Positions 9,668-34,726 of a DNA stretch of 64,000 nt are shown here, one piece after another; the stretch's first letter is position 1, and each line of letters starts with the position of its first letter. The notes beneath the pieces are model-generated. The model ran no database searches. It was given only the letters and a program-made list of their open reading frames with translations, and had not been told where the DNA came from. The stretch is from positions 1 to 64,000 of the forward strand of contig JAHBWG010000031.1 in NCBI GenBank assembly GCA_019637095.1, read 5' to 3'. The DNA is from Sandaracinaceae bacterium (GTDB lineage Bacteria > Myxococcota_A > Polyangia > Polyangiales > Sandaracinaceae). Both the position numbers and the translations under genes were made by a program.

Positions 9668-10464
9668 GCGGCGCAGACGGCCGGGTCGCGCCGGCTGGGA
9701 CACTGTCCCGAGATCCCGAGGTGACACAGCACGAAGTCGTACTTGACGGGGTCCGCCGGGTCGAGCGCGGCGAGCGCCCGCGTGATGTCCTCGGCGGTCT
9801 GCCACGACGCGCTCGCGCGCTCGGTCAGCCGCAGGTTCTTGCCGATGCGGTGGACGTGCGTGTCGACGGGCACGAGGAGCCGCGCGGGCGAGACCTCCGG
9901 CCACAGCCCGAGGTCGACGCCGTCGGCGGGCCGCACCATCCAGCGCAGGTAGAGCAGGAGCCGCTTGCACGCGCTGCCGGCGCGCGGATCCGGGACGAGG
10001 TGCGACATCGCCCGATCGGGATCCGGCCCGCGCAGGGCGTCGGCGAACGCGGCGAGGCCCTCGCGCAGCTCGCCGTCCGCGCGCGCGAGGCGCGACCCGA
10101 ACGCCGCGCCGAGGCTGCCTTCGCGCGCTCGGAGCGCGCCCGCGTTGGCGAGCAGGCGCGCCACGTGCTCGCCGCGCCAGACGCGATGGACGAAGCCGTC
10201 GAGGCGCCGGATCAGCGTCGCACGACGCGTGCGCGCGAGGGCCTCGGCGGGCCGCTCTCCGAGCACGTCGAGCACCCGCGTCACGCTCCGCTTCACCGCG
10301 CGCACGTTGCCGAAGGCGAGCAGCGCCGCGACGAGCCCGGCGACCTCGCGATCCGCAGGGTCCGCGTAGCGGTGCACGAGCTCCACCGGGTCGGCCGCGC
10401 GGTGCGCGGCCCGATCGAAGCGCGCGGCGAGCGGGTCGAGGTGCGCCGCGAGCGTGTCGCTCAT
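9631..10464 (-). CDS. TIGR02757 family protein (HhH-GPD-like, Fe-S loop)
   Basis: The 277-residue protein matches TIGR02757, a family related to HhH-GPD DNA glycosylases of the endonuclease III type. The segment VPVDTHVHRIGKNLRLT and the C-terminal cysteines arranged C-X8-C-X2-C-X5-C resemble the endonuclease III iron-sulfur loop. No family member has a firmly assigned reaction that I can name. The ATG at 10464 overlaps the stop of the PlsB-like gene by 4 bp, and the downstream redoxin start lies within its last codons, so the three form an operon. Confidence 0.82.
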   Translation of the reverse strand: MSDTLAAHLDPLAARFDRAAHRAADPVELVHRYADPADREVAGLVAALLAFGNVRAVKRSVTRVLDVLGERPAEALARTRRATLIRRLDGFVHRVWRGEHVARLLANAGALRAREGSLGAAFGSRLARADGELREGLAAFADALRGPDPDRAMSHLVPDPRAGSACKRLLLYLRWMVRPADGVDLGLWPEVSPARLLVPVDTHVHRIGKNLRLTERASASWQTAEDITRALAALDPADPVKYDFVLCHLGISGQCPSRRDPAVCAACTLRAVCRHWR

Positions 10465-32206: not shown

Positions 32207-32563
32207 TCAGCTCTTTTTGCGCCGGACCATGTCCTCGTAGCGCCAGTGCTCGTCGAGCCATTCGAGGATGTCCCACTCCGGATCCACGATCGATCCGTCG
32301 GTCGCGAGCTCGTAGAGCAGCTCGTACGCGAGCTCCCTCGCGACGGGGCGCGTGAGCGCGCCGACCGCCGCGGTGACCGCCGCGTCGTCCGGCAGCGTGC
32401 GGATCGCCTCCTCCCAGATCGCGCCCCACTGCGGCTCGGTCAACCCGAGCCGCGCCGCGAAGCCCGCGACGATGTCGAGCTCTCCCTCGGAGATCTCTCC
32501 ATCGGCCATCATCATGAGGCGCGCGGATCCCGCGAGCGCGACCATCTCGGCATGCGTGAGCAC
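32207..32563 (-). CDS. TerB-like small acidic protein
   Basis: The 118-residue product resembles TerB-type domains: ARLMMMADGEISEGELDIV matches the hydrophobic-MADG-acidic signature that binds metal in TerB. The GTG start at 32563 is chosen because a more upstream start would run through tRNA-Arg; ATG at 32545 is an alternative. No tellurite-resistance genes are nearby, so a general metal or stress role is only a guess. It ends 42 bp before the upstream end of the kinase gene. Confidence 0.6.
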   Translation of the reverse strand: MLTHAEMVALAGSARLMMMADGEISEGELDIVAGFAARLGLTEPQWGAIWEEAIRTLPDDAAVTAAVGALTRPVARELAYELLYELATDGSIVDPEWDILEWLDEHWRYEDMVRRKKS

Positions 32564-32580
32564 CGCCGGCGATTCTAGAG

Positions 32581-32654
32581 CACTCCCGGCCCGATTCGAA
32601 CGGGCGACCAACGGCTTAGGAAGCCGCTGCTCTATCCAGCTGAGCTACGGGAGC
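32581..32654 (-). tRNA. tRNA-Arg (anticodon CCT)
   Basis: A 74-base cloverleaf on the minus strand: acceptor GCTCCCG/CGGGAGT (first pair G-U), D stem GCTC/GAGC, anticodon stem GCGGC/GCCGT with loop TTCCTAA giving anticodon CCT, T stem GCCCG/CGGGC with TTCGAAT, discriminator G. Its first 10 bases overlap the 3' end of the upstream phosphoesterase gene. It would decode AGG, a rare codon in such a GC-rich genome. Confidence 0.95.
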
Positions 32655-34726
32655 GGAGCGGCCTGCATAGCACCGGCGTCGGCGCGGGTCAGGTCCCACG
32701 CGTCCATCGTCTCGCCGGTGCGCGAGACGGCGCGCGCGGTGGCGTGCTCGCCCTCGACGCGGACGATCACCAGGTGCTGGCGTGCGTCGAACGCGACCAC
32801 GTCGGCGGCCCACGGGACGGTGCGGTCCTGCGCGTAGTAAGGGGCGCCCGCGCCCCCGCTGACCACCTGCCAGAGCGGCCGTGAGAGGCCCTCGTGGATC
32901 CGCGTGCGGCTGTAGTTGTGCTCGTCGCCGTGGAAGATCGCGGCGACCTCGCGGTCGGCGAGCACGCCGAAGAGTCGCGCCCGCTGCGCGATCACCTCGG
33001 GGACGCGACCGCGCCACCACATCGCGTCCTGGACGTGACCGCCGTTCGGGTAGCCGGGCTCGTGCGTGAAGACGTAGAGGTGGCGCTGGCCGCGCGCGCG
33101 CGCGGCGGCGAGGTCGGCGGCGAGCCACTCGATCTGGCGATCGTCCACCCAGCCCTCGCGCTGCCCTCGGCCGAACGCGGGGTGGTCCGCGCGATCGGGG
33201 TGCGAGCGCCAGAAGTAGTTCGAGTTGACGACCGCGAGGTGCGCCGGCCCGGCGGAGAAGGAGTAGACGTTCTCGGCGTAGGGCGGGGCGCTCGCCTCGG
33301 GCGAGGGCGCGTTCTCGGGGTTCACGAAGCGCTCCGCGAAGATCGACTCGGCGCTCGCCGCGCCGGTCTGCGCGACCGCCCACCCCTCGGTCCAGTAGTC
33401 GATCAGCGCCTCGTGGTTGCCCATCGTCTCGTAGATCGGGATCGAGGCGTGGACGAGCTCGGCCGCCTTCTGCCACGCCTCGAGCTCGTAGCGGTACGCG
33501 CCCGCGTGCGTGGTGTATCCGTCGATCAGATCGCCGACGAACACGACGAAGCGCGCGCCCTCCTCGAGCGCACGAAGCAAGAGATCCTCCAGGACCGCGC
33601 GGTTGGTGCCAGCGTACCGCTCCTCGGCCGTCCCGTAGCCGCTGCGCGAGTCGCTGAGCACCGCGAACGTGAGGCGGTCGTCGACCTCGGGGGCAGGCCA
33701 CGTCTCGAACGTGGCGCTGCGGCTCGCGCCGAGCTCGCCGCGCGCGTCCGCGACGAGCACGACGTAGCGATGGCGCGTCGCGGGCGAGAGGCCCTCGACG
33801 CGGAGCTCGTGCCGCAAGCCGCCGCGCGCGCTCCGCACGACGCGAGGGGCGCCCTCGCCGGCGCCGCGGACGACGAGCGCGGCGACTGTGTCGACGTCCG
33901 TCTCGACGGTGATCGTCGCGCCGGTCGGGCCGACGAGATCGACGAACGGCCCCAGCCGCACGGTCGGGAGCTGGACGAACGAGGACGCGTCGCCGCACGG
34001 AGAGGGCTCGCAGCGAAACCCGAAGCGGTCGTCGTACGCGCGCGACGTGCCACGCTCGGGGTCGAGGGCCTCGAGCCGCCAGCGCACGAGCCCGCGCCCG
34101 CTCGAGCGCGCGCCGCCGACGTCGTGGCCGGGTCCGAGGATGCGCCGCACGTCGAAGGTGACGGACACGCCCTCGCCGTCGCGCTCGAGCGCGCTCGCGC
34201 GGCGGCGCAGCCGCGCGACGCCGAAGGGGTCGTCCGGCAGCTCGGTGCCGAAGTAGACGCTCGCGCCGCCGAGCGCGCGCGCCGTTTCGAAGCGGACCGT
34301 CGCGCGCCCGTCGGCCGCGAGGGTGGCGACGGGCACGCGGCGGAAGAGGCGCGGGTTGACCCGCGCGCGCTCGCCCGTGACGCCTTCGGCCGGCTCCTCG
34401 TCGAGCGCCCGGCGGTCCACCTCGTCCGGGGAGATCAGCCGCCCCTCGGGGTGCTCGTCGACGAGCCACGCGCCCGGCGCGTCGAAGTCGGGCAGGGCGA
34501 GGGCGGCGTCGCGCGCGGCGGCCGCGAGCGCCGTGCGCGTCGGCGCGAGGTCGGCCTCGTCGAACGGCGCAGGGCGCGACAGGGCGTCGACGGGGCGCTC
34601 GAACGACGCGCCCGCTGGCGCCGGCGCGGGCGCAGGATCGGGGAGGGGCGGGCGCGGCTCGTCACACGCAGCCACGAGCTGCGCGACGATCACCGCGAGT
34701 GAGCGCGCGAAGGAGAGCTGGCGCAC
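32645..34726 (-). CDS. Secreted metallophosphoesterase lipoprotein
   Basis: The 693-residue protein has a lipoprotein signal (LVAAC, Cys21), a Pro/Ala linker, a long N-terminal region, a fibronectin-like domain around 270-350 and a calcineurin-type phosphoesterase domain: LSDSRSGYG near 366, FVGDLIDGY near 407, MGNHEALID near 448, FTHEPGYPNGGH near 560 and HGDEHNYSRT near 603. The layout resembles purple acid phosphatases. The reaction is hydrolysis of an unknown phosphoester outside the cytoplasm. The TAG stop (32645-32647) is formed by bases 8-10 of tRNA-Arg. Confidence 0.85.
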   Translation of the reverse strand: MRQLSFARSLAVIVAQLVAACDEPRPPLPDPAPAPAPAGASFERPVDALSRPAPFDEADLAPTRTALAAAARDAALALPDFDAPGAWLVDEHPEGRLISPDEVDRRALDEEPAEGVTGERARVNPRLFRRVPVATLAADGRATVRFETARALGGASVYFGTELPDDPFGVARLRRRASALERDGEGVSVTFDVRRILGPGHDVGGARSSGRGLVRWRLEALDPERGTSRAYDDRFGFRCEPSPCGDASSFVQLPTVRLGPFVDLVGPTGATITVETDVDTVAALVVRGAGEGAPRVVRSARGGLRHELRVEGLSPATRHRYVVLVADARGELGASRSATFETWPAPEVDDRLTFAVLSDSRSGYGTAEERYAGTNRAVLEDLLLRALEEGARFVVFVGDLIDGYTTHAGAYRYELEAWQKAAELVHASIPIYETMGNHEALIDYWTEGWAVAQTGAASAESIFAERFVNPENAPSPEASAPPYAENVYSFSAGPAHLAVVNSNYFWRSHPDRADHPAFGRGQREGWVDDRQIEWLAADLAAARARGQRHLYVFTHEPGYPNGGHVQDAMWWRGRVPEVIAQRARLFGVLADREVAAIFHGDEHNYSRTRIHEGLSRPLWQVVSGGAGAPYYAQDRTVPWAADVVAFDARQHLVIVRVEGEHATARAVSRTGETMDAWDLTRADAGAMQAAPLP
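32664..32692 (-). promoter_or_regulatory. Putative tRNA-Arg promoter within the phosphoesterase gene
   Basis: On the minus strand CTGACC (32692-32687), 17 bases, TATGCA (32669-32664) with an extended TG. The -10 box lies 10 bases before the tRNA 5' end, within the last codons of the phosphoesterase gene, so the tRNA need not depend on that gene's transcription. Confidence 0.45.

Follow-up and report, generated by a model that had tools for sequence, protein, structure and literature searches.

A phosphoesterase gene of a Sandaracinaceae bacterium has its stop codon in bases 8-10 of a tRNA-Arg(CCU) gene

Background

In mitochondria, stop codons can be completed by polyadenylation after a transcript has been cut; we know of no such stop completion in bacteria. 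In the bacterial secG-leuU cotranscript, the stop codon of the protein gene precedes the tRNA. Part of one published report (PMC4284800) describes tRNA-tRNA overlaps and stop codons completed by the addition of A. Overlaps in which a coding sequence stops inside a tRNA gene are not new as a geometry, since public records already annotate some of 10 bases. Searches of one open-access library gave no recognisable account of tRNA bases 8-10 serving as stop codons in bacteria or phages.

We describe an overlap of this kind in a 64,000-nucleotide stretch of Sandaracinaceae DNA (contig JAHBWG010000031.1, positions 1 to 64,000; hereafter the window). It illustrates how a downstream tRNA can catch a lost stop codon and then hold the arrangement in place, since almost any change in the final codons would damage the tRNA or its promoter. 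It is also a natural substrate on which tRNA processing and translation termination may compete for one RNA.

Results

The features of the locus are collected in Table 1. Rfam places the tRNA at 32581-32654 (63.5 bits), one base shorter than ARAGORN, and with base 1 at 32654 the in-frame TAG of the phosphoesterase gene is U8-A9-G10. Of the ten tRNA bases in the overlap, seven encode amino acids and three form the stop; the acceptor strand is read as the last base of a CCG codon followed by CTC and CCG. The other two registers are also closed by the tRNA, at bases 21 and 37. The ORF call, ARAGORN and Rfam bear out the earlier note, which had read this geometry from the letters alone: a coding sequence ends on bases 8-10 of a downstream tRNA on the same strand. 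The tRNA has the cloverleaf, anticodon and conserved positions of a functional molecule. Its G1-U72 wobble pair could be read as a sign of decay, with the gene merely taking over the 5' end of a failing tRNA, but the identical pair occurs in two genomes of the same family (G005 and G008), the promoter motif is retained, the Rfam score is that given above and no other Arg(CCU) is present among the tRNAs found in the genome, so that we regard decay as hardly credible.

Two genes of the same strand closely flank the tRNA, the downstream one having a TerB-like match below the cut-off (E 0.058) and codon-position GC of 0.71/0.45/0.92. Elsewhere in the window, a 96-base tRNA-Gly called by ARAGORN at 9941-10036 (+) is absent from the Rfam search of the genome and is probably a false call.

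Table 1. Features of the overlap in the window, and viral loci used for comparison
Feature	Position	Strand	Basis
Calcineurin-like phosphoesterase gene, 693 aa	32645..34726	-	ORF, Pfam, homologues, codon GC
Stop codon TAG = tRNA U8-A9-G10	32645..32647	-	Sequence, ARAGORN, Rfam
tRNA-Arg(CCU), CCA not encoded	32580..32654	-	ARAGORN, Rfam
C-terminal extension AGAMQAAPLP and stop, past the homologue ends	32645..32677	-	Homologue comparison
TGCTAT, conserved extended -10 of the putative tRNA promoter, in codons GGT GCT ATG	32667..32672	-	
CTGACC, weak -35-like, 17 bases before TATGCA	32687..32692	-	Promoter-model score
Short gene downstream, weakly TerB-like, with its GTG start codon 16 bases past the tRNA	32207..32563	-	
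Viral loci with HNH over-representation	L219-L689, e.g. L246, L303, L320, L562, L235, L373		

That the phosphoesterase frame is coding up to the tRNA, as the earlier note had assumed, is confirmed by a Pfam Metallophos match (PF00149; 9.6e-8, 33.1 bits against a cut-off of 21.5), by 60% identity to proteins from the same bacterial family and by a codon-position GC bias of 0.77/0.54/0.95 over the whole gene, which persists in the last 50 (0.80/0.52/0.92) and last 20 codons (0.75/0.60/0.85). Matches at E <= 0.001 were obtained in 15 of 56 genomes searched; they covered most of the length in five only (the window's own genome, G008, G005, G018 and G043), the others being short and weak. The product is probably a lipoprotein, with a lipobox at the N-terminus judged by eye.

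The relatives of the gene stop about ten codons earlier. The window protein ends in DLTRADAGAMQAAPLP, and its homologues in DLGAVE (G005 and G008), DVTRAE (L088), LTLTR (L013) and QPST (L012); homologues that have no tRNA close by show much the same shorter end. Judged on these C-termini, the AGAMQAAPLP tail is new relative to the homologues. Its ten codons and the stop coincide with the tRNA promoter, a short leader and the first tRNA bases, and T or A is the third base of three of the ten sense codons, compared with 4.8% of those before (binomial 0.010). A missed or extra base could have concealed an earlier true stop, given that the overlap rests on one assembly and that a TGA is present in a neighbouring frame close to the gene end, within the CTGACC stretch. 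Such an error is nevertheless very improbable, as the conserved DL(TRA) end is in frame up to the extension and the GC signature is kept through the last 20 codons.

The earlier note had also placed a likely tRNA promoter within the last codons of the gene. In support of this, TGCTAT is found 17-20 bases upstream of the tRNA in all nine tRNA-Arg(CCU) genes retrieved from the family, which represent nine of ten family genomes (G004 yielded none). The motif is present once in the 2082-base phosphoesterase gene and twice in the window, where shuffling gives a mean of 2.74. Its presence before three of 18 order-level tRNA-Arg(CCU) genes marks it as mainly a family trait. Under a two-box promoter model trained on the upstream regions of 100 other tRNAs, the site ranks fifth of 2045 positions in the gene, with a score of 4.8 that falls below the training median (10.3), mostly because the -35 element is weak; a generic sigma-70 scan found no site for this promoter. 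The conservation suggests that tRNA-Arg(CCU) is transcribed from its own extended -10 promoter within the last codons.

Comparison with relatives, proposed by the earlier note as a check, located both genes in two of them, but apart from each other, and the overlap was found in one genome only. In G005 and G008 the order is tRNA, a 422-aa gene on the opposite strand, phosphoesterase and a divergent extensin-like gene, and the phosphoesterase ends at a TGA of its own, roughly 1.3 kb short of this tRNA. In G002 and G009 the tRNA lies beside eno and the phosphoesterase is missing there. The window locus is syntenic with G005 on either side, which disfavours a chimeric contig.

Either the 422-aa gene and the phosphoesterase stop were lost here, or the 422-aa gene was gained in the genus of G005 and G008; the shorter end shared by homologues without a nearby tRNA favours stop loss in the window genome. 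The same shorter end counts against an ancient neutral overlap that G005 and G008 would have lost through a gene inserted between phosphoesterase and tRNA; although the order of phosphoesterase and tRNA is common to both genera, we consider that history unlikely. The reading that we think probable is that the phosphoesterase stop was lost and its function caught by U8-A9-G10 of tRNA-Arg(CCU), with the tRNA made from the internal promoter and transcripts used for one product or the other. Loss of the gene's own stop next to the tRNA would have extended translation by about ten codons, through the tRNA promoter and the 5' acceptor strand, to termination at U8-A9-G10 as the first in-frame stop after the lost one. 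A phosphoesterase transcript would then have to carry the 5' part of the tRNA in order to have a stop, and each transcript could serve as a message end or as a tRNA, hardly as both together.

The earlier note had raised the prospect of a non-stop mRNA. Cutting by RNase P ahead of 32654 would truncate the message after the second base of a CCG codon and so deprive it of a stop, and the cloverleaf is present in the folds predicted with a leader of 36 or 60 bases, so that a ribosome-free transcript would be an RNase P substrate; a ribosome terminating at the UAG would instead cover the 5' part of the tRNA. These points, together with a tmRNA gene in the genome (G000:C143) for ribosome rescue, would fit a regulatory overlap in which tRNA maturation and tmRNA rescue limit enzyme yield. 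However, tmRNA is near-universal and its presence is unspecific, relatives with both genes do not share the arrangement, and a conserved promoter motif of its own precedes the tRNA. Regulation of this kind is improbable. tRNA-Arg(CCU) does not need readthrough from the phosphoesterase gene, and a non-stop message is a possible side effect.

How unusual the arrangement is was assessed with 232 tRNAs, comprising the full set of 46 that Rfam finds in this genome and a further set from 12 relatives, the latter taken best-scoring first and not as a random draw. A stop triplet occupies bases 8-10 in 176 of them (186 if base 8 or 9 of the ARAGORN call is accepted), so that a frame entering a tRNA in that register stops there. 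The rare part is a real coding sequence entering a tRNA at all: of the 230 tRNAs preceded by 180 bases or more, only the one behind the phosphoesterase gene is entered by a long coding frame on its own strand, which makes the arrangement unusual for its bacterial group. The survey had given five candidates, of which four were dropped. A tRNA-Cys of the window (54831) adjoins the start of an opposite-strand gene, as judged by eye; the candidate ORF at an Arg(TCT) of G003 spans an upstream tRNA-Pro; and two tRNA-Ser candidates have open frames of only 81 codons, ending far beyond the tRNA (G009), and only 46 codons (G000). No case was found among a further 45 tRNAs from 26 order-level loci, at least one of which (G018 C83) was already in the survey.

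In phages, coding sequences ending on tRNA base 8 recur. Four pattern scans yielded 471 viral loci, in which 2259 distinct tRNAs had more than 300 bases of upstream sequence. A codon-bias filter reduced the CDS-like ORFs (80 aa or longer) ending between 60 bases before and 75 bases into a tRNA from 330 to 317; some of these ORFs have no family match and may not be genes. Forty-four stop inside the tRNA, 18 of them exactly at base 8, a count to be read with the scan patterns in mind, since these contain TAGCTCA and favour tRNAs with U8-A9-G10; with pattern-matching tRNAs left out, the count is 14 of 227. The 44 fall into 25 protein clusters, 13 of which have a base-8 member, and 22 of the 44 are in the base-8 register (p 0.016 in a weak frame-bias test). 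Pfam matched six of ten base-8 proteins scanned (CpeT, SpoU methylase, cytidylyltransferase-like, HNH, GIY-YIG/NUMOD3 and, just below the cut-off, 2OG oxygenase), and three of the four unmatched (L246, L303 and L562) match PHROG HNH endonucleases.

The HNH motif C-x-N/T-C/H-H is carried by 15 of the 44 tRNA-ending sequences compared with 6 of 273 others (Fisher 4e-10), and by 14 of 38 compared with 6 of 189 without pattern-selected tRNAs. Among ten tRNA-ending proteins scanned from the HNH-enriched set, eight match PHROG HNH families, and the two without the motif (L496 and L653) match other PHROG endonucleases. At the same viral loci, many coding sequences end 5-12 bases before a tRNA, and in eight the G of the terminal TAG is also the first base of the tRNA.

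The clearest example is cyanophage cpeT, present in 11 of the 12 cyanophage records examined. In nine of these 11 its frame ends on bases 8-10 of a tRNA, on tRNA-Thr in S-CAM4, Sf-CH1b, Sf-FR1 and ACG-2014j and on tRNA-Asp in S-RSM4, S-WAM2, ACG-2014e, ACG-2014i and S-H9-1. ARAGORN starts tRNA-Asp one base early, and the annotated starts (S-RSM4, S-WAM2 and S-H9-1) give base 8. The last two cpeT residues follow the tRNA, being Gly-Leu on tRNA-Asp and Pro-Asn, Pro-Leu or Pro-Glu on tRNA-Thr. In S-PM2 the stop is a TGA at tRNA bases 4-6; cpeT of ACG-2014h has its own TGA and no tRNA annotated there. A different small coding sequence ends at tRNA-Thr base 8 in S-SZBM1, and an HNH gene of S-WAM2 likewise ends on tRNA-Asn. 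Across L691-L695, L724-L726 and L728, the cpeT stop is kept while the underlying tRNA is Thr or Asp.

Discussion

We tentatively suggest that tRNA genes may act as interchangeable stop-codon cassettes, because the spacing between the 5' end and U8-A9-G10 is constant in most tRNAs. A gene whose register fits could then drop its own stop and even swap tRNAs without losing a clean end, and its messages would be either translated and terminated or processed by RNase P, the latter giving a tRNA and a message that lacks a stop; phage homing endonuclease genes would make the most use of this. We hold this wider idea to be doubtful.

Overlaps between coding sequences and tRNAs are poorly handled by annotation, with records listing one or the other and not both. 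The S-H9-1 record (L724) lists the tRNA and lacks the cpeT coding sequence, and those of ACG-2014e, ACG-2014j and ACG-2014i (L695, L725 and L726) list the coding sequence and lack the tRNA. In S-PM2 (L690), an annotated coding sequence at 1091-1234 covers the 3' part of a tRNA-Ala and a whole tRNA-Met.

Conclusions

The window locus resembles mitochondrial tRNA punctuation and gene-tRNA overlaps in that tRNA processing would coincide with a message 3' end, with the difference that a cut here would remove the stop. As in the secG-leuU cotranscript, a tRNA lies directly downstream of a protein gene on the same strand, but the stop is within the tRNA. It is like cyanophage cpeT (S-CAM4, S-RSM4, Sf-CH1b, S-WAM2 and Sf-FR1), where the 10-base overlap already stands in the records' own annotation, in that the stop is exactly tRNA bases 8-10 and the acceptor strand encodes the last residues. 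The cpeT overlaps lie in phage tRNA clusters and are common to several phages, with the tRNA differing among them, whereas the window has a single bacterial tRNA with its own putative promoter inside the coding sequence. Retention of the arrangement among relatives, which is absent here, is a trait of the phage group and not part of the geometry.
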